A program made the position numbers and the translations under genes. Of a stretch of 64,000 bases of DNA, positions 1-43,719 are shown one piece after another. Source of the stretch: Spartobacteria bacterium (GTDB lineage: Bacteria > Verrucomicrobiota > Verrucomicrobiia > Chthoniobacterales > UBA10450). The DNA lies in the NCBI GenBank assembly GCA_003167365.1, contig PMTM01000018.1, forward strand, positions 1-64,000, in the 5' to 3' direction. The notes below the pieces were generated by a model. That model saw nothing but the letters and a program-made list of their open reading frames with translations, was not told where the DNA came from and searched no databases. Numbering within the stretch: position 1 is the stretch's first letter; every line of letters starts with the position of its first letter.

Positions 1-83
1 CTGACTTCAGATGACATATACAATCTTTACCTTTTTTTGGGCGTGGAAATAGGCTGCAAGATGCAGTCTAATTCTCGTTAGAT
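1..83 (+). repeat. attC-like site, partial (right part only)
   Basis: This is the 3' part of an attC-like site. It carries the central segment shared with the sites at 517, 929 and 1466 (GACATATACAATCTTTACC) and ends in R'' box GTTAGAT at 77-83. The R' half lies outside the window. The start codon of the next ORF (82) is inside R''. Confidence 0.65.
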
Positions 84-501
84 GCTAAAGCGCGTCGTTG
101 CCGTCATGTTATTGCTGTCTGCGGGCATCGCTGCTGAGGCGATGTCATACTCGTTTGTTTCCAAGGCGAGCGGACGATTGGGCGGGCCGATTCGCTTCGA
201 GTTTTACCGTGAGTCGACCACACGCCCGAAGACCGATATCAAGTCATTCACCGTTTCTATGCGGACCGCCGATGACCGGTGGACGGCGATGTGGGCCATC
301 TTGAGCGGCCGTGGTCTGAGACACCCGATCGAGTACGGCGTTACGCCTCCTGGTTTTACCACGATGATTCAACCGCAGAAGCTCATCCCCGGTCGCGTTT
401 ACAAGGGGTTCGCTACCGATGGACACGGAGGCTCATCTGGCGTGACTTTCGGATTCGATAAAGACGGGACGATGATCTTCCCGGACTCATTCGATGAATG
501 A
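82..501 (+). CDS. Cassette-encoded exported protein of unknown function
   Basis: This 139-residue protein has an N-terminal signal peptide (hydrophobic residues about 5-17, then an AEA cleavage-like site near residue 20). The remainder is soluble with no family I recognise. The ATG overlaps the R'' box of the preceding attC site and there is no clear Shine-Dalgarno. Translation may therefore depend on upstream cassette transcription or on a near-leaderless mRNA. It is the first complete cassette ORF in the window and ends 15 nt before the next R' box. Cassette genes usually lack their own promoter and none is evident here. Confidence 0.6.
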   Translation: MLKRVVAVMLLLSAGIAAEAMSYSFVSKASGRLGGPIRFEFYRESTTRPKTDIKSFTVSMRTADDRWTAMWAILSGRGLRHPIEYGVTPPGFTTMIQPQKLIPGRVYKGFATDGHGGSSGVTFGFDKDGTMIFPDSFDE

Positions 502-516
502 GTGGCGAATGAAAGC

Positions 517-653
517 ATCTAACCAATCGCCCGATTCGACCCCTGGTCGAATTGATATGACATATACAATCTTTGCCTTTTCTGCGGTTGCGGTTTTTGA
601 CGGCTAATACGCTGGATAGCCGTCGAAATTGTCGGCATGATCACGTGTTAGAC
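517..653 (+). repeat. attC-like recombination site, 137 bp
   Basis: R' box ATCTAAC at 517-523 and R'' box GTTAGAC at 647-653 fit RYYYAAC and GTTRRRY. The interior carries the block common to the neighbouring sites (GACATATACAATCTTT, then GCGGTTGCGG, then GGCTAATACGCTGGAT). A short hairpin (GCCG/CGGC around TCGAAATTGT) lies near the R'' side. Confidence 0.75.
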
Positions 654-672
654 GACTCGGACACGCATCCCG

Positions 673-912
673 ATGAATGAAATTCCTCTCGAGGTCCAGG
701 GCAAAGTGCTCAACGCACCGTATCCGAATATGACCGTCCTGGTTCGACATGATCCCGAGCAGACCGGCGGCTATTTCATTTTCCAGTGGTGGGATGGCTC
801 CAACGGGCCGAATGAACACAGCGCATTCGACGACTGGGTAGAGTCTGCCGAGGATCTACAGCAGTATTTCACCGAGAGCGGATGGACGGTGGAGTGGGAG
901 AAGCCTCAGTGA
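673..912 (+). CDS. Cassette-encoded small protein of unknown function
   Basis: This 79-residue acidic soluble protein has no signal peptide or membrane segment. It contains a WWDG segment in the middle and a tryptophan-containing C-terminus. I recognise no family. The start at 673 lies 20 nt after the R'' box of the preceding attC, and the stop is 17 nt before the next R' box. This is the usual one-ORF-per-cassette layout, and that layout is the main support for its being a real gene. Confidence 0.55.
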   Translation: MNEIPLEVQGKVLNAPYPNMTVLVRHDPEQTGGYFIFQWWDGSNGPNEHSAFDDWVESAEDLQQYFTESGWTVEWEKPQ

Positions 913-928
913 GAATGGAGCGCAAGTT

Positions 929-1065
929 GCCTAACCAATCGCTGCAACCAACCGCTGGCTGACTTCAGATGACATATACAATCTCTACCTTTTTTGCGGT
1001 TGCGGCTTTTGTCGGCTAATACGCTGGATTGCCGTCGAAATTGCCGGCATAAACATATGTTAGGT
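929..1065 (+). repeat. attC-like recombination site, 137 bp
   Basis: R' box GCCTAAC is at 929-935 and R'' box GTTAGGT at 1059-1065. It has the same length as the sites at 517 and 1466, and most of the interior reads the same, including CATATACAATC and the GCCG...CGGC hairpin next to R''. Confidence 0.78.
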
Positions 1066-1471
1066 GGCGTCATGCAACGTGAGTGAAAAACGAAAAGAGT
1101 TCATTGTCTTGGCTGTCGGTGACAAGGATTCGTATGGCTACGATGAGCACACGTTGCCGCTTCTTTGGCAGCTTATCGATTCGTCGGCTCCTGACACGCG
1201 CGAGTTCACCCACGTTGGCGCTATCGCGTACTACGTGCGTTCTGCTCGTACCATCATCGCGGTTGAGGATGTTATTTCACGAGCGGAAGGCCTGCGCGAT
1301 GGTGACCGGAGATTCAAGACACTGGGCATTGGATTGGCGCATGGACATATGATCGCAGACTTTGGTTTTACTCCCTTGGGTGAGGTTGCTAATCGTGCTT
1401 CGGCGGGTGTCGCAGGTGCGCAGACGTATCGAGAGACTTTAGCTGAGTTGCAGGAGACCAATGCCACCTAA
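1064..1471 (+). CDS. Cassette-encoded soluble protein of unknown function
   Basis: This protein is up to 135 residues long. The GTG at 1064 overlaps the R'' box; a GTG at 1079 is an alternative start. The stop codon TAA lies inside the R' box of the next attC site, as is common in cassettes. There is no signal peptide or transmembrane segment. Features include a GDKDSYGYDEHT segment near residue 18 and a GHMIAD segment near residue 95. No family is recognised. Confidence 0.55.
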   Translation: MASCNVSEKRKEFIVLAVGDKDSYGYDEHTLPLLWQLIDSSAPDTREFTHVGAIAYYVRSARTIIAVEDVISRAEGLRDGDRRFKTLGIGLAHGHMIADFGFTPLGEVANRASAGVAGAQTYRETLAELQETNAT

Positions 1472-1602
1472 CCACGCGATGCAGCCAACCGCTGGCCGAT
1501 TTCATACGACATATACAATCTTTACCTTTTTTGCGGTTGCGGGTGTTATCGGCTAACGTGCTGGATATGCCGTAATTTTGTCGGCATAATCATATGTTAG
1601 GT
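1466..1602 (+). repeat. attC-like recombination site, 137 bp
   Basis: R' box ACCTAAC is at 1466-1472 and R'' box GTTAGGT at 1596-1602. The R'-side ATGCAGCCAAC and the R''-side TCGGCAT can pair imperfectly with an extra base, as attC L arms do. The central block is shared with the sites at 517 and 929. Confidence 0.8.
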
Positions 1603-1637
1603 GGCCATGGCGCGTCCCCACGTTTAGAAAGCCCAGC

Positions 1638-2123
1638 ATGAGCGATCCAGGTGACCAAACACGTCTTATCAGACTCTTCAGCCAGAGGGAGCGCCAGTGT
1701 CGCGTTGAGCACCGAGCATATGGCCGTTGGCTCGCTCTCCTTACTCCGCTCCGCTGGTTCACCGTGGCGGGCGGCACTATTTTATCGGCTCTTGCGGGCG
1801 CCACAGTCTTCAGCAAGCCCGTATTCCTCGGCGAGCAATGGCCCATTTACGCCGGCGTATTTGCGTTAGTCGCATCGATCCTGACAGGACTGCATACCGC
1901 GCTCCACTGCGATGCCCATCAAGCAGAGTGTCGCCGCCTTATTCAGCTTTATCAGAGCCTCGAGACAGGTTTCCAAGCTGCGCATGCCCTCCCAGCGCCT
2001 GAGATACCGCAACGGTTCAAAGACCTGGAAGCCAAGTTCGAGGAAGCGAAACTGAAGGCGACTGCGTCGCCCCCAACATTCTTTCGCGAACGTGCCGAAA
2101 GGGAGGTCACAACTGCCGCCTAA
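1638..2123 (+). CDS. SLATT-like two-TM membrane protein (cassette-encoded)
   Basis: This 161-residue protein has an N-terminal Arg/Glu-rich helix (residues 8-30), two hydrophobic segments (about 38-57 and 67-87) separated by a short loop, and then a long amphipathic helical tail starting at an ALHCDAHQAECRRL segment. Helix, TM hairpin and C-terminal helical bundle is the layout of SLATT domains. SLATT domains are pore-forming effectors proposed to act with SMODS nucleotidyltransferases and SLOG sensors in anti-phage systems. The assignment rests on topology and general feel, not on an alignment, and no cyclase or sensor gene is adjacent. The stop codon is in the R' box of the next attC. Confidence 0.45.
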   Translation: MSDPGDQTRLIRLFSQRERQCRVEHRAYGRWLALLTPLRWFTVAGGTILSALAGATVFSKPVFLGEQWPIYAGVFALVASILTGLHTALHCDAHQAECRRLIQLYQSLETGFQAAHALPAPEIPQRFKDLEAKFEEAKLKATASPPTFFRERAEREVTTAA

Positions 2124-2264
2124 CCATGCGCAGCAGCCAACCGCTGGCCGGTTTCAGATGACATATAGAAGACATACTTTCTTGGTTCGCTAAACGCCTT
2201 GCGGCTTTTGTCGGCTAATACGCTGGATATCCGTCGAAATTATCGGCATAATTATATGTTAGGC
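2118..2264 (+). repeat. attC-like recombination site, 147 bp
   Basis: R' box GCCTAAC is at 2118-2124 and R'' box GTTAGGC at 2258-2264. It matches the 137-bp sites on both flanks but has a longer, altered middle with an extra stretch between GACATATA and GCGGCTTTTGTCGG. Confidence 0.78.
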
Positions 2265-2281
2265 CGACAAGAAGGCGCTCA

Positions 2282-2692
2282 ATGATTAAACTCTCCTCGA
2301 TTATGACGGTGCTGGTATGGAGCGCACTGCTCTGCTGGATTGCTAGTATGTTCGCGAGCCGCTTTCACCAAGCGCGCGGCGACCTAGCGTTTGTCCTCGT
2401 CGCCATTTTTGCCAGCTGCTGCGCGATTTCTCTCGCCGTTATCGCTGCGACGCATCGGTCACGTCGTGCTATCCGGTGGCTACTTGTTTTGTCGGTGTTG
2501 TCTGCCCTTTTGGCAGGCTTAGGTGCGTGGATGATGATTTCCCCGATTACAGTGGTGGGACTGCGATATTTTGGGACCATGACGCTCGTTGGGCGGCTCT
2601 GGCTCATCGGGCTGCTGACGATGTTCTTGCTACCGTGGCTATGGGGCATTGTATATTACCGATCACGGGAGCAAGTCACGCAGGTGGCCTAA
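2282..2692 (+). CDS. Cassette-encoded four-TM membrane protein
   Basis: This 136-residue, strongly hydrophobic protein has about four membrane-spanning segments (about residues 7-25, 35-57, 65-85 and 101-124) and short basic loops (THRSRRAIR near residue 60). No catalytic motif or recognised family. The TAA stop lies in the R' box of the next site. The start ATG at 2282 is 17 nt after R''. Confidence 0.6.
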   Translation: MIKLSSIMTVLVWSALLCWIASMFASRFHQARGDLAFVLVAIFASCCAISLAVIAATHRSRRAIRWLLVLSVLSALLAGLGAWMMISPITVVGLRYFGTMTLVGRLWLIGLLTMFLLPWLWGIVYYRSREQVTQVA

Positions 2693-2810
2693 CCAGGCGC
2701 TGCAGCTAACCACTGACCGTCGCGTGACCACATTGGAATTTTATGAGAGAGTTCTCGACATTGAATTGCTCGGTTTCTGTCAGCGGTAGCTGATCTTGTT
2801 CTCGTTAGAC
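2687..2810 (+). repeat. attC-like recombination site, 124 bp (second sequence type)
   Basis: R' box GCCTAAC is at 2687-2693 and R'' box GTTAGAC at 2804-2810. Its arms differ from the upstream family. CAGCTAAC near R' pairs with GGTAGCTG near R'', with the conserved spacer ATCTTGTTCTC before R''. The same R'' arm recurs at 3683-3701 and 43004-43029. Confidence 0.78.
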
Positions 2811-2821
2811 CTAGTGGACAT

Positions 2822-3193
2822 ATGATCGAGCATCCGCCCTCACGCGGTCTTTACATGCTCGCTTGGCTTGGCGTCTGGTCTACGTCTTGGTTCGCGATAT
2901 TGTGCCTCGGCATCATCGCCATTTTTGCTTTCCGCTGGCCGTGGCTCTTGATGATCGCTCTGCCCACGTTTCTTGTCAGTCAGATCGCGTTCATCGCCCT
3001 CGCCTTCTTCTTCCGTTGCCCATCGTGTGGTCACTTCGTGTTCATTCAGGGCTGGCGACCGATGCATCCTGCACGCAAAAGAGTTTTAGCGGGATTGGGG
3101 ATTGCTTCCTGGATCGCGGTTGCCGTCGACATTGCGCGCAATCGACAATTCACTTGCATGCATTGCGGAGAGAGATGCACCGCCAGGGTCTAA
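2822..3193 (+). CDS. Cassette-encoded membrane protein with split zinc ribbon
   Basis: This 123-residue protein has two N-terminal hydrophobic segments (about residues 13-35 and 38-62), a CPSCG knuckle near residue 67, a further hydrophobic stretch (about 91-105) and a C-terminal CMHCGERC knuckle. Two CxxC pairs would form one zinc ribbon on the side of the membrane where both knuckles lie. Role unknown; a sensor or membrane-anchored adaptor is possible. The stop codon overlaps the degenerate R' box that follows. Confidence 0.55.
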   Translation: MIEHPPSRGLYMLAWLGVWSTSWFAILCLGIIAIFAFRWPWLLMIALPTFLVSQIAFIALAFFFRCPSCGHFVFIQGWRPMHPARKRVLAGLGIASWIAVAVDIARNRQFTCMHCGERCTARV

Positions 3194-3220
3194 ACAGGCG
3201 ATGCAGCTAATGGCTACCCG
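3188..3220 (+). repeat. Left (R') half of a split attC-like site
   Basis: The R' variant GTCTAAAC (3188-3195, one extra A) is followed by CAGCTAATGGCTACCCG (3204-3220). The expected R'' partner is not within the usual 150 bp. It is found at 3669-3701, where CGGTAGCCGTAACTG is the imperfect reverse complement of this arm. Confidence 0.6.
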
Positions 3221-3309
3221 GCGAACATCAGTAGCTTGACTTACGCTGAGTCTCATAGCTGCAAATACGACTTGCTACTGCAGCCTGTCTAGCTATAGGT
3301 ATTTGTCTT

Positions 3310-3633
3310 ATGGACTTATCTTTACAGAAGCTGGAACAAGCTATCTCAATTCGGAAGCGCATTCATCAGTTAGAGGGGCAGCTAAGCGCTCTGTTTGGTA
3401 ACACTAAAGGCTTTCGCTCAAGTTCCGGTAAGCGGAGAGTATCCTCGGCGACACGTGCGAAACTTGTGGCCGCCGCGAAAGCTAGCTGGGCAAAGCGAAA
3501 CAGTAAGAAAAGCGCTAGCGGTTCGAAGAAGACCGCAAAGAAAGGCGGTCTTACTCCAGCTGGAAGAAGGAAACTGTCTCAGCTGATGAAGGCAAGGTGG
3601 GCCGCAAGAAGGAAAACCGCAGGGAAGAGGTAG
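3310..3633 (+). CDS. Small basic KARWA-repeat protein, histone-H1-like
   Basis: This is a 107-residue, very Lys/Arg/Ser-rich protein. An N-terminal coiled-coil-like helix (residues 3-30) is followed by a basic tail. The tail holds two copies of a motif S-x-x-x-R-x-K-L-x(4)-K-A-x-W-A-x-R (about residues 44-63 and 80-98). Such repeats are widespread in verrucomicrobial and other small proteins thought to bind DNA, but no function is established. It lies in the loop between the two halves of a split attC site, so it was probably inserted there instead of arriving as an ordinary cassette. Confidence 0.6.
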   Translation: MDLSLQKLEQAISIRKRIHQLEGQLSALFGNTKGFRSSSGKRRVSSATRAKLVAAAKASWAKRNSKKSASGSKKTAKKGGLTPAGRRKLSQLMKARWAARRKTAGKR

Positions 3634-3664
3634 CGGTCTTGTCGGTTGTCGCAGTTGACGCTCG

Positions 3665-3701
3665 GTGTCGGTAGCCGTAACTGATCTTGTTCTCGTTAGA
3701 T
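3665..3701 (+). repeat. Right (R'') half of a split attC-like site
   Basis: GGTAGCCGTAACTG, the ATCTTGTTCTC spacer and R'' box GTTAGAT (3695-3701) form the right arm that pairs with 3204-3220. About 450 bp containing the basic protein gene separate the halves. Confidence 0.65.
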
Positions 3702-3708
3702 TCCTGCG

Positions 3709-4080
3709 ATGGACTCCACGCCTCCGACGCGAAACCCTCTGTTGCCAGTGTTAGTCGGCTGTCTCGTCCTTGGCTTTTTCGATATCCGCTTTTACTTCAT
3801 CGAGCACCATTTCGTCGCCTTGGGCTCAGCTATCATCGGGCCAATAGTCATCTTCATTATCCTATTCTTCATGCGATCGCGCTTCGCATGGTTGGTGGCA
3901 GTCATGTTCGTACTGATTGTCGCAGTAACGCTTTTTCTCACCTACCAGCTGGGGTACATGGGTTTTCCGCTTACTTGGTTCCTTGGGATTGTCGACCTGA
4001 TCCTCTTCGCTCTGTTCCTCGGCTACACCTGGAAGAGGAGAGAGCCTTATTTTCGCTATGTTGCAGCGAAAGAAATCTAA
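3709..4080 (+). CDS. Cassette-encoded multi-TM membrane protein
   Basis: This 123-residue hydrophobic protein has four predicted membrane segments (about residues 11-30, 37-55, 62-80 and 84-108) and a short basic C-terminal tail. No family is recognised. The ATG is 7 nt after R'' of the split site. The TAA stop sits inside the R' box at 4075-4081. Confidence 0.6.
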   Translation: MDSTPPTRNPLLPVLVGCLVLGFFDIRFYFIEHHFVALGSAIIGPIVIFIILFFMRSRFAWLVAVMFVLIVAVTLFLTYQLGYMGFPLTWFLGIVDLILFALFLGYTWKRREPYFRYVAAKEI

Positions 4081-4110
4081 CCAGGCGATGCAACGAACGG
4101 CTACCTGGCG
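4075..4110 (+). repeat. Terminal R' half of an attC-like site (array end)
   Basis: R' box ATCTAAC (4075-4081) is followed by a GCAACGAACGGCTACC arm. No pairing R'' half is found before the RHS gene, so the array stops here. The following stretch up to 4344 holds no gene or recognisable element. Confidence 0.6.
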
Positions 4111-4344
4111 TTATACCGAATTTCCAAGACAACGCAACGCAGTGATATAGCTAGCGCCACCCGGTGCCCGATCACGTTTTCAGGTGGTTCCAAATCAGAT
4201 GTTTGTTCGTCGATCCTTTGAAGAATTTCTCCTCAGTCTAGATCAGCGAAAAGATATTGACAGAAAAGCTCGCGATGCGGTGTAATACTCGCCTCCTAAT
4301 TCCCCTGGAACGGTTTTGGAGACCGTTAGCAAATTCCAAAACCT

Positions 4345-7300
4345 ATGTATTTCCTCAGATCGCACTCTGCTGTTTATCCCCTACGAAAACCACTTCTTTG
4401 GCTGGCCATTTTTTTAGGCGGACTAGTTGTCACCTCACATGTTCTAGCCCAAGGAGAAAGCAATCCGACTGGGGCCGCGGGAAGCTTTAGCGGCTCGATC
4501 GCAACTGGGGGCGGTTCCTTCGATCCTTACGAACGCAACGCCAGCCGCTCGGTCACTGACATTGTCGTTCCGGGAGCGGTCATCCCTTTCACCTACACCC
4601 GAATCTGGAATTCTCGCGGTCCATGGGGTGGGTGGCGCGACAATTGGCAATGGGATATTAAAGGTTACTATGATGATCTCGGGGATCTGGGCAATGGCGC
4701 GGTCCCAAACGATGCGTTTTTCGGATACACCGTCAATTATCCGGATGGTCGCGTTGTTCAATTCCTCAAACCCACAAACCCGGCGCATGCACCACCGGGC
4801 CAGGCTGGCCCTTATTCCAATGCATTCGGAGTCGTGGATCGATTCGTCATCGATCAAGCTGGCGCGCACTTGTTCCTAGCCGATGGTAGCGTGGTCAATT
4901 TTCCCGTGCCCCCTTCCACCCAGACCCTTGGGGCTACGAACATCGTTGATCCGCATGGGCAAGTTGTGACTTTTAACGGTGCGATTCCACCGTACCTCAG
5001 GATAATTACCGAACCGGGTGGACGATCGATACATGTCAGTTACTCCGCGGACAACAGTATGGCGGCAGTGACCACCAGTCTCGGGCAAAGCGTGACTTAT
5101 ACGCTTACTGACACCAGTGGGTCATTTCCCCAACCGTATGGCCCGGACACAGGGATCTACCTCTCCGGTGTCGCGACATCGCTGGCCACTGTTACTTATA
5201 ACGATGTCCTCGACCCGGTGACGAACCAGCCGGTGCAAGCGCAATATGTTTCCAAACTGGTGCAGCCGCCGAGGAACCCTAACAGTAACCCCAACTTTCC
5301 CCTGCCCAATGCTTTCGGCCGGTTGGTTTGGGCTTCGGACCCGATGTTTGATGGACCGCTCCAGCAGATCAAATATCTTTACGTCGATGCCAACGCGAAC
5401 CTGTTGATCAGCGACCCGAGCCGAACGTGCGTGGTGGAGGAACGCTCGGCCACTAGTGTGGATGATGTGGGGGTGACGGTTTCGCGCGTGGAAATGCCAG
5501 CGACTGTCACCTGGTCGATGGACTCAGGAGGTTATTCGCCGAATTATTCTGATCGAATTGAAACGCACGGTGATGGCGTCGTCCGCACCATTTCTTATTT
5601 TAATCCCACCACCCCCGTTACCTGGATCGACTCGCACAACACGCCCCATCACGGCTTTGGTCAGGGGCAAATTCTGGCCGACCACTTTACCGACTTCACC
5701 AACAATCCAAGCGTGACGGAGCGGCATGAGTACGACATGGCTCATCTTTTCCAGACGCCGACTAAGATCACCGACGCGCTTGGGAATGTGACGCTACAAT
5801 CCCTGGAATCAGTCCTTGGCCACATCACTCAGGAGACGCACCCAGACAACAGCTTTCTCTCGTGGAGCTATTCGGATACGGCTAATCCATATTATGTCGC
5901 GAGCAAGACGGACGAGCTTGGTCGCGCGATTACTTATACGCGTGATCCGACTACGCATCTGGTCAAGGAAATCGATTATCCGGGTGGGACATCTGAAATC
6001 TTTACCTATAATTCTTTTGGTCAGGTCACCGACCACCAATTAGCCAGCGGCGCTCATGTCTATCAGACTTTCAATGGCCGCGGGTTAAGGACCAGCAGTT
6101 CGGATTCGGTAACAAACGAAGCCACTACCTACACTTACGATTCTTGGGACCGGCTCCAGACCGTGCGCGATCCGCGCGCGGCTGCCTTGGGAGTCCCGTA
6201 CAGCGCTTCATTCGAATACAACGGCCGCAATCAGGTCACGAAGATTCATTATCCGGCAACCAGTGGCTCGTCCGACCCGACCGTCACTTACGGCTACGAC
6301 AACTGGGGCCATTGCACGTCAATCACCGATGAACTGGGCGGTACCCGCACGATGACGTACGACGATTTCGGCCGCTGCATTTCCTATGCCGAGTCGCTCA
6401 ACGCGCCGGACTGGAGTGGCGGCGGCAATGTAGCCACGCGGACCTGGAACTGGACTTATGAGCGCGTGCGCAACGGTGTCACTTATGCCGCGAATACGCA
6501 CACGGCCAAAGAATGGCGCACGCAAGTGGAGCCTGCTTACGACGCTGCAGGCGATCGTCGCATGACCGTGCGCGAATACGATGTGAACAATCGCCTCTCT
6601 ATTGAGCAGACCGGTTGGATCATGCAGGCCAATGGCACCGCTTATTATAGCGGCAGCGATGGCGAAACCCACTCGTTCACTTATGACGCCAACGGGAACA
6701 AGGCGAGTTACACCGATCCGATGACCCGCGTCACCACCTACGGTTACGACACCCGCAACCGGTTGACCACAACAACGGAGCCACTTAGCCGCATCACCAC
6801 AACCGTGTATGACGCCGTGAGTAACAAAACAAAGGTCACTTTCCCTGACCTCACGACCCAGCAATGGCTGGATTATGATGCCTTTGGTCAACACTGGCGC
6901 TTTATCGACGAACGCGGAGACACAGCCAATCTCACGTATCAATGGGGACCGATGAAGAAACTGGCCACGGTCACGACCCATCGGGACAAGGATGGCGGCG
7001 GCACGGAAGATCAACTGACGACGTTTACCTATGACGGCATTGGCCGCCTCCTCAAGACAACTTTTCCGGATGCCAGCTATGAGCAAAGTACTTATCAGTA
7101 CGGCGAGCTTTTGACTTCGCGAGTGCGCAAAGGCGCGACTAAAACTTTTAGCTATGATGCGCGCGGCCGCGAAATTTTACAGCTTTGGGACGACTCGATT
7201 ACTCCAGGAGTAGGCCGTATTTGGGACGACGCCAATCGGGAGCTTATTCTTTTCAATATCAATTCCACGATTAGCTACGCTTACGATGATGCGGGACAAA

Positions 7301-9447
7301 TCCTCTCGGAAACCGATCTGCCGGGTCAAGACTCCAATACCGACCCGGGTAGTATATCAACTCAGCATCAAACGTTGGGACCGCCTCCACCGGCAATAAC
7401 ATATTATCGCTACCCGGACGGAGCGGTCGCCCATGTCACTTATCCCAATGGTTCGATCTTTCGGCGTGATTATACCGCGCGCGGCCAGTTGGCTGCGACC
7501 GGCTGGGATGATGGAAACGGCGATTGGCAGGTGCAACTAGCCAATTATACTTATTTGATGGATGGGAAAGTGGACCACGAAGTTTACGGTAACGCCGTGC
7601 GAACGGACTTCGGCTACGATGGGCGCGGGTTCGTGAGCGGGATCAATACCCACAAAGGCGCGCAGACTTACACCAACCGCAGTTATCTCCGCGACAGCCG
7701 GGATCGGATCACCTCTTGGAACAAGAGCGGGAGCAATTCCTACAACCCGCTGGAGAACGGCGCGGGCGACATCTACGGCTACGATGCCGAAAGCCAACTG
7801 ACCAGCGCGACTTACGATGCTGCGCCCACACCAACACCAACACCGACTCCCACCCCGACGCCAACGCCAACACCAACTCCGACGCCTAGTGCGACACCGA
7901 CCCAAGTGAGTGAGCCGGTCTTCAACCCGGGTGGTGGGACCTTCTCCGGAAAAAGTGTGAACGTGACTATTACCTGCGCGACGAGCGGGGCCAGTATTCG
8001 CTACAAAATTGGGACCACGCCGCCGACTAGCACCAGCGGGACTTTGATCGCCAGCGGCAACAGCGTCAGCGTCAGCCTGAGTGCCAACGGCACGCTGCTG
8101 CAAGCCATCGCCTATAAGAGCGGCCTGGCCGATTCCCCGGTGAATGCCGATTATTATTTCGCGCAAGGGACCCAGTACGTGGTGGACGGGTCTGACACGT
8201 TGGCGATGCCAGCGTCCCGGAGCGAGACCTTCGTTTACGATCAACTAGGAAATCGTAAAGGCGTCAACACGCTCGATGGGCAAGGGGCGACCACGTTTAA
8301 CCGGAGAGACACAGGGTTGAACCAATACCTGAGCTGGACGCCGGACAATATCAGTTACGACAGCAACGGAGCATTGACCAGCGAAGGGTGGATCACGGGC
8401 AGCTACAACGCCTTGAACCAGCCCGTGACGATCAGCAGCGGGAGTGCGAGCGTGAGCTTCGGGTATGACCCGCTGGGCCGCTGCGTGCAACGGGCGAGCG
8501 GCACGACGACGACGTATCTGTATTATGAGGGATGGAACTTGATCGAGGAAGGAGCGGACCCGAGCCTGCCCGATCGCATTTACGTGCACGGCGGACGGAT
8601 CGATGAAATCGTGGCTGACCAGGCCAGCGACGGAACTTGGACCTACCATCATTACGACGCGCGTGGTCATTGTATCCTGCTCACGGATGCGAGCGGGAAT
8701 CTGCTGGAGCAATATAGCTATGACGCGTTTGGCAAAGTTTATTACTACGATGGAGCGGGCAACGCGCTCACCGATACCGCCAGCGGTAACCGGTTCCTGT
8801 TTACTGGGCGCGAATGGATCAGTGATTTAAAGCTGTACGATTTCCGCAACCGCATGTATCAGCCCGACCTGGGCAGATTTATTCAGCCTGATCCGAAGGA
8901 GTTCGCGGCCGGCGACTACAATCTCTACCGCTACTGCCACAACGATCCGGTGAATAAGAATGATCCATTTGGACTGGAGCCGATTTATGTCGCGCCCGAA
9001 GTGTACGACATGGGTATGCGAAATGCGGCCGAAGCGCTGCAATCATCAGAGGATTACCCAACTCACACGTCTAAGGGTGGGGAATTTGAATTTCGCACCG
9101 ATACTTTAAGAAATAATTTGACGGGCATTATTCATCCGAGTCAGACCGTAAAGGGTTATGAACAAAACGGGAATCAGGCAAGCAACTCTCCTTCGTTCGA
9201 TCGTACTCGAGAGACTAGAGTAGCGATTAGTTTTAGTCATCCGAAAGGCGTCAAACCGGGTCATGAACAAGCGGATAAAGCGACTTCCAATGATAGTCGT
9301 AACGGTGGGAAAAATCCTGTCCCATCCTTCGTTGCTAGTCGAAAAGATGGCAAGATACAGGTCGAGATTCACGTTCCGTCAGATAACATCAACGAACGAA
9401 TACAAAATGTAGGCGGAACAGTATTAGTACAAGAATATCGAAGATAA
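4345..9447 (+). CDS. Secreted RHS/YD-repeat protein with variable C-terminal domain
   Basis: This protein of 1700 residues has an N-terminal signal peptide (hydrophobic about 16-33, ending in a VLAQ cleavage-like site). A long RHS/YD-repeat shell follows (many Y-D-x-x-G/N-R motifs, about residues 400-1150). Next come a Pro-Thr dipeptide linker (about 1160-1185) and a beta-sandwich resembling CHB_HEX_C (about 1191-1270; FNPGGGTFSG and the SIRYKIG segment). YD repeats then resume to the RHS core signature GRFIQPDP (about 1510) and DPFGLE (about 1540). The last 155 residues are of a different character and are the expected effector domain. GGEFEF, FSHPKG, HEQAD and VASRKDG resemble the spacing of JAB/DUF4329-type domains, but this is tentative. 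RHS shells usually encapsulate a C-terminal toxin used in competition. Confidence 0.85.
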   Translation: MYFLRSHSAVYPLRKPLLWLAIFLGGLVVTSHVLAQGESNPTGAAGSFSGSIATGGGSFDPYERNASRSVTDIVVPGAVIPFTYTRIWNSRGPWGGWRDNWQWDIKGYYDDLGDLGNGAVPNDAFFGYTVNYPDGRVVQFLKPTNPAHAPPGQAGPYSNAFGVVDRFVIDQAGAHLFLADGSVVNFPVPPSTQTLGATNIVDPHGQVVTFNGAIPPYLRIITEPGGRSIHVSYSADNSMAAVTTSLGQSVTYTLTDTSGSFPQPYGPDTGIYLSGVATSLATVTYNDVLDPVTNQPVQAQYVSKLVQPPRNPNSNPNFPLPNAFGRLVWASDPMFDGPLQQIKYLYVDANANLLISDPSRTCVVEERSATSVDDVGVTVSRVEMPATVTWSMDSGGYSPNYSDRIETHGDGVVRTISYFNPTTPVTWIDSHNTPHHGFGQGQILADHFTDFTNNPSVTERHEYDMAHLFQTPTKITDALGNVTLQSLESVLGHITQETHPDNSFLSWSYSDTANPYYVASKTDELGRAITYTRDPTTHLVKEIDYPGGTSEIFTYNSFGQVTDHQLASGAHVYQTFNGRGLRTSSSDSVTNEATTYTYDSWDRLQTVRDPRAAALGVPYSASFEYNGRNQVTKIHYPATSGSSDPTVTYGYDNWGHCTSITDELGGTRTMTYDDFGRCISYAESLNAPDWSGGGNVATRTWNWTYERVRNGVTYAANTHTAKEWRTQVEPAYDAAGDRRMTVREYDVNNRLSIEQTGWIMQANGTAYYSGSDGETHSFTYDANGNKASYTDPMTRVTTYGYDTRNRLTTTTEPLSRITTTVYDAVSNKTKVTFPDLTTQQWLDYDAFGQHWRFIDERGDTANLTYQWGPMKKLATVTTHRDKDGGGTEDQLTTFTYDGIGRLLKTTFPDASYEQSTYQYGELLTSRVRKGATKTFSYDARGREILQLWDDSITPGVGRIWDDANRELILFNINSTISYAYDDAGQILSETDLPGQDSNTDPGSISTQHQTLGPPPPAITYYRYPDGAVAHVTYPNGSIFRRDYTARGQLAATGWDDGNGDWQVQLANYTYLMDGKVDHEVYGNAVRTDFGYDGRGFVSGINTHKGAQTYTNRSYLRDSRDRITSWNKSGSNSYNPLENGAGDIYGYDAESQLTSATYDAAPTPTPTPTPTPTPTPTPTPTPSATPTQVSEPVFNPGGGTFSGKSVNVTITCATSGASIRYKIGTTPPTSTSGTLIASGNSVSVSLSANGTLLQAIAYKSGLADSPVNADYYFAQGTQYVVDGSDTLAMPASRSETFVYDQLGNRKGVNTLDGQGATTFNRRDTGLNQYLSWTPDNISYDSNGALTSEGWITGSYNALNQPVTISSGSASVSFGYDPLGRCVQRASGTTTTYLYYEGWNLIEEGADPSLPDRIYVHGGRIDEIVADQASDGTWTYHHYDARGHCILLTDASGNLLEQYSYDAFGKVYYYDGAGNALTDTASGNRFLFTGREWISDLKLYDFRNRMYQPDLGRFIQPDPKEFAAGDYNLYRYCHNDPVNKNDPFGLEPIYVAPEVYDMGMRNAAEALQSSEDYPTHTSKGGEFEFRTDTLRNNLTGIIHPSQTVKGYEQNGNQASNSPSFDRTRETRVAISFSHPKGVKPGHEQADKATSNDSRNGGKNPVPSFVASRKDGKIQVEIHVPSDNINERIQNVGGTVLVQEYRR

Positions 9448-29998: not shown

Positions 29999-30466
29999 TT
30001 AAATGAATGGGTGAACTACTTTGAGATCTGGATCTTTTTTCGCCAGTTCGCGAAAGGAAGCGTCCATTTTGAAACTGGTCTGCAAATGAACCTGGGCATC
30101 GCGCACATTGCCAAGCAGCGCATCGTAACAACCCATGTTGTAATAATAGATCGGCTCGTTCAGTAGCGCCGCCGGACCTGTGAGCAGAAGCTTTTTGGCC
30201 TCGGCTGTTTTGCCGAGCTCGTGCAAACAGAAGCCGGCGTGCAAGAAGCCGGCGCTGTATTGAGGGGCAATGCGACAAAGTTTCCGGCTGATCATCAAGG
30301 CTCGCGTCCAGCTTTTCTTCCGCATCAAATGATGCAACCGGAGCTGCAGGACTTCCGGCCGGCCTTGGGACTCGGCATCGATCGTGTTCAATTCCTGAAG
30401 CGACTCGCGCGCCATGCCCAATTCGGCATAACCGCAGGCAACCTGAAAATGGCGTTCGAAATCCAC
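29999..30466 (-). CDS. TPR-repeat protein
   Basis: This 155-residue all-helical protein has about four degenerate 34-residue TPR units (FQVACGYAELGMARESLQEL, LRLHHLMRKKSWTRAL, GFCLHELGKTAEAKKLL, YNMGCYDALLGNVRDA). No signal peptide. Such proteins act as protein-interaction scaffolds; the partner is not evident from the context. Confidence 0.8.
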   Translation of the reverse strand: MDFERHFQVACGYAELGMARESLQELNTIDAESQGRPEVLQLRLHHLMRKKSWTRALMISRKLCRIAPQYSAGFLHAGFCLHELGKTAEAKKLLLTGPAALLNEPIYYYNMGCYDALLGNVRDAQVHLQTSFKMDASFRELAKKDPDLKVVHPFI

Positions 30467-42699: not shown

Positions 42700-43003
42700 G
42701 GTGACGATCCTCGACCGACTGACCGATATCACTCAGTGTACACTCTGTGGCGGGACCTCGGCGCTATATATAATTATATACGGAAGAGTACAGGCCAGGC
42801 CGGGCTTGCCAGCGTCGCTGGTTATGATCGTTTCCTTGTACCCCGCAACACAATTGATCCAAAGTCAGTGCCCTATCATCTGAATTCCATATATATACGT
42901 GGCAAAAGAGTTTGCCCGAAACAGGCTTGGGTAGCAAAGAGATGATTCGGTAGTGGTACGGTTAGTTAGTTTGGACGAAGTTATTGCTTTGCTAGAACTG
43001 ATC
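42700..43003. other. AT-rich intergenic region upstream of the proton ATPase
   Basis: No gene is supported. It contains an AT-rich core (TATATATAATTATATA, 42765-42780) whose minus-strand reading offers TATAAT-like -10 boxes for the ATPase. A second TATATATA tract lies at 42891-42898. The right end holds no recognised element until the attC half-site. Confidence 0.45.
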
Positions 43004-43029
43004 CGCAGCTGATCTTGTTCTCGTTAGAC
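43004..43029 (+). repeat. Isolated attC-like right half (R'' box)
   Basis: CGCAGCTGATCTTGTTCTCG plus the R'' box GTTAGAC (43023-43029) match the right arms at 2791-2810 and 3683-3701 nearly base for base. No complete left half precedes it. Confidence 0.65.
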
Positions 43030-43034
43030 CGCCT

Positions 43035-43325
43035 ATGCTTTTCTTTAGGCGTTTGTTAACCTCGTGCGTTCTATTCGCCATCTTGTCGGTGGCATTGTTA
43101 ATCACTATTGGAATGATCGCGGGCGCACACGGAGGTGTAAATAGGCCGACTGGGACGGATTCAAGAGCGTATCCAGTTGGATACGAGGTCACGAGAAGAT
43201 ACGGCGCGATCGTTTTACTGAGCGCACTGAGTGTGCCGGCCTTGGCCGCTGTTGCAATTTCATTTACTGGGTTTCTTCCATGGTGTCGGAACAAACCCCG
43301 ATCTCTGCCAGGTCCAAAGGTCTGA
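43035..43325 (+). CDS. Small two-TM membrane protein in a solitary cassette
   Basis: This 96-residue protein has TM helices at about 8-28 and 57-79. A short extracytoplasmic loop lies between them (NRPTGTDSRAYPVGYEVTRR). No family is recognised. The ATG lies 5 nt after an R'' box, and the TGA stop overlaps an R'-like box, exactly as in the array at 1-4.1 kb. It is therefore a displaced or isolated integron cassette. Confidence 0.6.
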   Translation: MLFFRRLLTSCVLFAILSVALLITIGMIAGAHGGVNRPTGTDSRAYPVGYEVTRRYGAIVLLSALSVPALAAVAISFTGFLPWCRNKPRSLPGPKV

Positions 43326-43355
43326 CCCATCGATGTAGCTAAACGGCTACCCGCG
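43320..43355 (+). repeat. Isolated attC-like left half (R' box variant)
   Basis: GTCTGAC (one mismatch to RYYYAAC) is followed by GTAGCTAAACGGCTACCCG, the same left arm type as 3204-3220 and 4088-4106. The matching right half is not found downstream. Confidence 0.6.
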
Positions 43356-43719
43356 GAAGTAATGGCCACAATCACTTGTTGGACGGACATTGCTGTCCGT
43401 TTCCTAAAGCTCGACACGTAGGAACACCGCGAACGTTGGCGGACGAGCTCTGCTCGCTAGCTCGCAATGTTCGGCGGCTTGATCGGTGGAGCACACAGCG
43501 CATTGGTTATCGGGGTAGAGGTGCGCGCTTGTCGGTATCTGAACCTTTTTTAATCTTCGTTTCATCATCCCCGAATCTTCGGCCTGTCTAATACTGAAAT
43601 GGGAAGACTGCTCGTCGGTTATGAAGAAATGAGGAAGCGCGTCATTCGCCCCTTCCTAACAGCGGAGCCTTTATCTCGCCCTTCCGCCATCCGTTAGCAA
43701 TGCAATCACCAAGAGCTTC
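43356..43719. other. Intergenic stretch with one hairpin, no gene supported
   Basis: ACGGACA-TTGC-TGTCCGT (43383-43400) is a perfect 7-bp hairpin. A GCGGACGAGCTCTGCTCGC palindrome-like segment follows at about 43439. The rest shows only short ORFs lacking start signals or recognisable products. Confidence 0.45.

Follow-up and report, generated by a model that had tools for sequence, protein, structure and literature searches.

The window analysed here comprises 64,000 nt of a Spartobacteria bacterium (contig PMTM01000018.1, positions 1 to 64,000 of the forward strand). In its first 4.1 kb, which are also the start of contig G000:C7 (G000 is the genome under study), small genes alternate with attC sites, and the contig starts inside this cassette array (Table 1). 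The array resembles known integron cassettes in its R" and R' boxes, its arms, its intact sites of about 123–147 nt and its small ORFs in one orientation. It differs from them by one attC site that is split by a gene, by the integrase that was not found and by many half sites. Sites of 120–129 bp are described as typical of sedentary chromosomal integrons (PMC5371416). The stop codon of cassette gene A falls within the R" box of the split site. An Rfam search of window positions 1–4500 returned no match to attC or any other RNA. Directly after the end of the array lies a gene for a 1700-aa Rhs/YD-repeat protein (window 4345–9447).

Table 1. Features of the cassette array at the start of the window (positions refer to the window).
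Feature	Position	Strand	Basis
Cut attC site at contig start	1–83		
Complete attC, type A, 137 nt	517–653	+	R"/R' boxes and repeat family
Complete attC, type A	929–1065	+	R"/R' boxes and repeat family
Complete attC, type A	1466–1602	+	R"/R' boxes and repeat family
Complete attC, type A, 147 nt	2118–2264	+	R"/R' boxes and repeat family
Complete type-B site of 124 nt; unbroken attC next to the split one	2687–2810	+	Predicted bottom-strand fold, 18 arm pairs
Cassette gene A, 123 aa, small membrane/zinc-ribbon-like protein	2822–3193	+	ORF; zinc-ribbon matches weak and sub-threshold
Type-B attC left half: R" GTCTAAA, L", loop start	3188–3235	+	26.3 bits
5' flank of H1-like gene; promoter-like TTGCTA-N13-AGCTAT at 3272–3296	3236–3309	+	Alignments
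Gene for H1-like basic protein, 107 aa (copy 1)	3310–3633	+	ORF; two paralogues in the genome
Type-B attC right half: loop end to R' GTTAGAT; starts directly after the stop codon	3634–3701	+	53.2 bits over 3660–3701
Next cassette gene, 123 aa, membrane protein-like	3709–4080	+	ORF; no family above cut-off
Orphan attC left half, end of array	4075–4110	+	35.2 bits; right half after it not found

With five complete attC sites in the window array and no integron integrase over the cut-off in the genome, the array qualifies as a CALIN. In the profile search of G000, a draft genome in which contig ends may be missing, the best matches to the integron integrase model stayed below the cut-off. The two best were a XerD, which exceeded the XerD cut-off, and a XerC/D-like tyrosine recombinase; the candidates on contigs C16 and C1 were set aside as Xer-type recombinases, and a third candidate on C22 (414 aa) matches no model over the cut-off. 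Of 61 sampled genomes in the same bacterial family, 28 have an integron integrase that passes the cut-off, and 53 contain attC right halves resembling those of G000 (none in the control read backwards). Because no integrase was found in G000 while genomes of its family carry both integrases and attC halves, the array is an integrase-less, decaying relic of a family-wide integron.

The initial annotation had reported two attC halves around a gene for a basic protein, and both were confirmed with a half-site weight matrix that was trained on complete sites, the split site being left out of the training set. The left half at 3188 scored 26.3 bits (training median 36.2); in shuffled DNA, the best match per 2 kb has its 99th percentile far lower, at 3.0 bits. 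For the right half, which ends at 3701, the score was 53.2 bits (training median 56.0). The scan between them found no other half at such strengths, the next best scores being -4.7 for a left and -24.3 for a right half. The P values given here for the weight matrix, the local attC candidate, copies 2 and 3 and the flanks of L198 and G066 are based on single-letter shuffles, and the shuffles for fold prediction keep dinucleotides. The left half at 3188 is 86% like the one at 4076. Of the two boxes, R' fits GTTRRRY, and R" is mutated by one change from the consensus RYYYAAC. The retained parts, 48 nt on the left and 68 nt on the right, add up to 116 nt, and intact sites mostly measure 123–124 nt; of the 172 complete sites found in a search limited to 150 nt, 98% have a length between about 97 and 144 nt. 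Copy 1 of the H1-like gene does not have the ordinary layout of a cassette, as only a left half precedes it and only a right half follows.

The name 'histone-H1-like' given to the enclosed gene is appropriate as a description, since 30 of the 107 residues are Lys or Arg, but not as a family assignment, as no curated match was found. The protein matched no Pfam or NCBIfam family above the cut-off and nothing in PHROGs, the 25 alignment members of its family gave only scattered weak matches to Pfam, and a PDB search with the protein returned no convincing relative. Its AlphaFold model consists of three helices with low global confidence (pTM 0.27). The product is probably a small, basic, DNA-binding protein. 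The motif TTGCTA-N13-AGCTAT in front of the gene would be its promoter, and similar spacing is seen by eye upstream of the gene in relatives. The copies of the gene within G000 differ by a pN of 0.03–0.07 and a pS of 0.09–0.14, the ratio ranging from 0.31 (copy 1 versus 2) to 0.53 (copy 1 versus 3), and this low pN relative to pS suggests that the protein is probably still in use.

The claim that the two arms belong together was weakly favoured by their sequence fit and disfavoured by the folding of the joined flanks. In a comparison with 95 complete sites drawn from G000 and relatives, the short arms of the split site reached a fit of 26 (median of the true pairs, 29), which 14% of the mismatched pairs also reach; an equal fit was obtained by 8 of 95 other right arms with the left arm of the split site and by 11 of 95 other left arms with its right arm. 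With wide arms (48 x 68 nt), the split site scored 44 against a median of 42 for the true pairs (n=82), and 8% of 6642 mismatched pairs reached 44. Its left arm was fitted as well by 3 of 82 other right arms, and its right arm by 10 of 82 other left arms; in an enlarged set, 10% of the mismatched pairs fitted as well. When the joined flanks of copy 1 were folded, 5.2 arm-arm pairs were expected versus 9.5–30.0 in 15 intact sites of G000, all of which were higher. Among 158 intact sites, 93% folded better and only 7% were at that level or below, and 81% of the mismatched joins folded at least as well. The sequence fit thus mildly favours one split site, and the predicted folding mildly disfavours it; poor folding counts against the site working today.

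One of the two options raised by the initial annotation was a giant attC with a protein-coding loop, in which the bottom strand of all 514 nt would fold and an integrase supplied in trans would move gene A and the H1-like gene together. The intact R' box would be compatible with this, the family genomes with an integrase offer a possible source, and loop length is described to matter little for attC sites delivered single-stranded by conjugation (PMC8946536). Against it, the predicted fold of the 514-nt bottom strand contains no arm-arm pairs, versus 33 and 18 in two intact controls, the R" box is mutated, and no integron integrase was found in G000. According to the same source, recombination drops by as much as 4 logs with long loops under replicative conditions (PMC8946536), and a length of 514 nt far exceeds the known attC range of 57–141 bp (PMC5371416). 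The large-loop attC sites of the Vibrio cholerae repeats are alike in that the loop is the variable part of the site; their loop is given as about 65 nt (PMC2727003), and the arms of the split site are separated by about 450 nt that include a gene. We consider a working giant attC highly improbable.

The other option was a gene inserted in the loop of an attC site. A moderate arm fit, the complementary lengths of the two halves and copies of the gene beside broken sites in four other genomes speak for it; it is not proven and has a close rival, as set out below. No target duplication was found by eye at the ends of the insert, where only the 5-nt sequence TTGAC occurs on both sides, which is weak. 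The insert also does not look like a transposon or a group II intron, since it holds only the 107-aa ORF and short overlapping frames and no ORF for a transposase or reverse transcriptase. Some IS1111 members target attC. Insertion into attC is described for group IIC introns and IS1111-type insertion sequences (PMC7923331, PMC11187229). The split site has foreign DNA at an attC in common with these elements and differs by an insert of about 375–400 nt with a 107-aa ORF as its only content. A complete local attC at 3188–3293, formed by the left half and the gene's own 5' flank with 14 of 15 pairs matching by eye, was rejected, because it was equalled by 19 of 400 shuffles and 32 of 400 genome windows, because all three copies carry this 5' flank and because the pairing of its central spacer is not attC-like.

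Only three copies of the H1-like gene were found in G000; all of them lie in cassette arrays, sense to attC and with attC sequence adjoining, and the stop codon of copy 1 directly adjoins it. Copies 1 and 2, on two different contigs, have the gene and the right half in common and diverge directly after R'. The 5' flank is common to all three copies from 3259 and to copies 1 and 3 from 3235/3236, these two sharing 20 nt more than copy 2. Their common left end, a C followed across the boundary by TTGACTTACGC, may be the true end of an element, an integrase crossover point or the result of a later deletion in copy 3 from a copy-1-like ancestor. Copies 1 and 3 are identical over 122 nt in the middle of the gene (window 3406–3527) and differ at both of its ends, a pattern suggestive of gene conversion between the copies.

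No left half above background was detected before copy 2 with the weight matrix, and a decayed attC-like stretch was recognised there by eye; when copy 2 was tested for a decayed left half, which would make it a split site too, the match was not significant (P=0.30 in comparison with copy 1, P=0.075 in comparison with all left halves). Before copy 3 (C16:29767) only the R" box (8 nt) is present, and about 105 nt of attC sequence follow the gene, consisting of a weak left half at 30101 (0.5 bits, the best in the region; match P=0.045) and a right half ending at 30211 (9.1 bits). This sequence can be read either as the copy's own decayed attC or as the remainder of an attC whose R" lies upstream, so that copy 3 can be seen as splitting a site as well. 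A relative with two complete attC sites around the gene, the arrangement that the initial annotation had set against a split site, was not found; copy 3, with a decayed but apparently complete attC after the gene and only an R" before it, comes nearest. Far from the array, at 42978–43360 of the window, an isolated cassette-like remnant comprises a right half that ends at 43029 (16.4 bits), followed by a short gene-like stretch and by a left half at 43320 (13.2 bits) that lacks its right half. Its right half has 'AAGTTATTGCTTTGCTAGAAC' in common with the one after copy 3 on C16.

Three similar copies in one draft genome might have misled the assembly into a chimeric join, in which case the flanks of copy 1 would not be true neighbours. 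The copies do share exact runs of 96–122 nt, and the genome consists of 24 contigs with stretches of N, some of which stand for withheld sequence, with the window starting at a contig end inside the array. These runs are shorter than common read lengths, however, and the junction between gene and right half is the same in copies 1 and 2 on two different contigs. We consider such an artefact very unlikely.

In the bacterial family, the H1-like gene is present in 76 of 83 genomes, the named relatives being Candidatus Udaeobacter and other Chthoniobacterales MAGs. In relatives it lies among ordinary chromosomal genes, with the neighbourhood of a tRNA-Leu(CAG) flanking 9 of 29 loci. The corresponding tRNA-Leu(CAG) neighbourhood of G000 contains no H1-like copy. 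A long repeat-rich gene occupies its place (G000:C9:94000–100500; L025, L114), and an orphan attC right half is located nearby at C9:96153–96172.

We scanned 126 H1-like loci, some places having been fetched twice, and obtained six rows with an attC half within 300 bp, which correspond to four places: L198 in genome G005, L205 (identical to L105) in G004, L202 (identical to L081) in G089 and L095 in G066. In an unbiased set of 48 loci, three had a half within 300 bp, compared to 0.85% of background windows (P=0.008). Each of the four genomes carries another H1-like copy on another contig, and at all four places the extra copy is antisense to the attC half; therefore, these copies are not simply the usual sense cassettes. 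The stop codon of the H1-like gene in L198 falls inside the loop of an attC that belongs to another gene, 56 nt past the R" start; the corresponding distance in L205 is about 65 nt. L202 has its half at a distance of 270 bp from the gene, and in L095 a right half lies 48 bp from the start side of the gene. The partner half on the far side of the gene was not found in L198, L205 or L202. The 24 nt next to the stop codon in L095 are similar to those in L198 (P=0.0012; P=0.063 for a wider stretch). On its left side, the G066 copy has a decayed site at best, the best match to intact sites giving P=0.03. Among the relatives examined, no genome with an empty site, i.e. an intact attC without the H1-like gene, was found. 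Separately, the flanks of the extra copies L202 and L205 (g5 genomes) and L196 contain sequences like ACATGATG(C/T)TGTGATTCGCGTTTACG, upstream of the gene in two cases and downstream in one, which are perhaps the end of another repeated gene.

A tree was calculated from 38 proteins of the family, one of the 39 planned alignment members having been dropped for length. The three copies of G000 form one clade (99/99), and the attC-side copies of G005 (L198) and G066 (L095) group together (96/86), apart from the other copies of their own genomes. This grouping would fit either a transfer or an old paralogue, G066 being a 53% complete bin in which wrong binning is possible. A far-reaching view of these data would take attC loops as recurrent landing sites for the H1-like gene, with at least two independent insertions, one in sense orientation in G000 and one antisense in the lineage of G005 and G066, and with sites whose loop codes for a protein and that an integrase in trans can still move in single-stranded form. 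We give this only a slim chance.

The frequency of half sites bears on a more serious rival, in which the H1-like gene would be an ordinary cassette whose own attC lost its left half (copies 1 and 2), while the attC of gene A lost its right half, so that decayed neighbouring cassettes were fused. Partial loss of attC leading to fused neighbouring cassettes has already been described (PMC4670013), and decay fits an array without integrase, such arrays having been proposed to be degraded integrons (PMC9024848). In the sampled loci, 218 right halves comprised 172 in complete sites and 46 without a partner; among left halves, 24 of 53 were partnerless in G000 versus 24 of 196 in relatives, a comparison that is indicative only, as the stretches were picked by attC patterns differently in G000 and in relatives and sampling was thus unequal. 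Only 6 of the 46 orphan right halves have an orphan left half within 1500 nt, and two of these pairs enclose an ORF of more than 50 aa, namely the split site at 3188–3701 and a pair in L134 (G066:C49, minus strand, 2356–2657), where the halves lie 301 nt apart around a 52-aa basic ORF. The latter is unlike the H1-like gene in appearance, and the arm fit of its pair is no better than chance. The arm fits of the other orphan pairs are likewise spread as by chance, and in an earlier set of ten pairs with looser distances only the split site at 3188–3701 approached significance.

Decay is further consistent with the cassette-like look of copies 1 to 3, which are in sense orientation with attC sequence adjoining the stop codon, with the divergence of copies 1 and 2 directly after R', with the decayed complete attC after copy 3 (30101–30211) and with the decayed attC-like stretch before copy 2. 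It would require two independent truncations, however, both ending in a loop and leaving complementary lengths, and it leaves unexplained the antisense copies at broken attC sites of four other genomes as well as the arm fit, a level that 86–92% of the mismatched pairs do not reach. The known fused cassettes are alike in that cassette genes are joined after partial loss of attC; as far as described (PMC4670013), they differ from the present case, in which two halves with a moderate mutual fit enclose the gene and related copies in other genomes run antisense. We rate decay of two neighbouring sites as a substantial possibility, below an even chance and close behind capture of the gene in an attC loop. 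As a separate observation, an attC arm in L028:2117–2270 (G000:C18) contains an inserted near-perfect hairpin (GGTGTTGGTCGGC...GCCGACCAACACC), so that small insertions in attC arms do occur in G000.

As the best single reading, with which decay competes closely, we tentatively propose that the H1-like gene moved into cassette arrays and that copy 1 was captured at a break in the attC loop of gene A, a proposal to which we assign somewhat less than an even chance. The gene, equipped with its own promoter, would have passed from the chromosome into the integron-type cassette arrays of G000, and copy 1 would have been taken up at a break in the loop (the variable terminal structure) of gene A's ordinary attC of ~120 nt. 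For this, the attC hairpin or cruciform may have been cut near its loop and the break closed with other DNA inside. The resulting site, consisting of a 48-nt left and a 68-nt right part, would most likely have lost folding and recombination as an attC. The analysis shows the two halves with a gene between them, the chromosomal place of the gene in relatives, the lack of a detectable integrase and the copies beside broken sites elsewhere; that the two halves were once one site and went through such a break-and-capture step is our inference. We favour capture because one event explains both flanks of copy 1 as well as the recurrence of the gene at attC breaks in both orientations. Several findings argue against it: the poor folding of the joined flanks, the missing right halves in L198 and L205, the at best decayed left side of the G066 copy, the distance of the half in L202, the empty-site genome that was not found, the resemblance of copy 3 to a cassette with its own decayed complete attC, the missing left half of copy 2, the abundance of half sites in G000 and the target duplication that was not found.

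Insertions at attC and fused cassettes are known, whereas the open-access literature searched yielded no report of a repeated link of one small gene to attC breaks, of a gene within the loop of an attC or of integrons in Udaeobacter-type bacteria. The first steps by which genes are turned into cassettes are said to be largely unknown (PMC5371416). The H1-like gene, possessed by nearly all relatives and found here only in arrays at broken attC sites, represents a natural case of chromosomal genes entering arrays. If decay is the correct explanation, the case illustrates how a split site can be distinguished from decayed neighbours, a difference that an array finder might otherwise miss. If recurrent landing in attC loops were true, cassettes would have a further, new means of acquiring a second gene, and the origin of cassettes would become more accessible to study. 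With the extra copies beside other broken sites in relatives, attC sites may be places of gene capture. Should attC loops be fragile spots at which DNA is captured, many integrons are expected to contain half sites and loops with genes, which is testable by counting.
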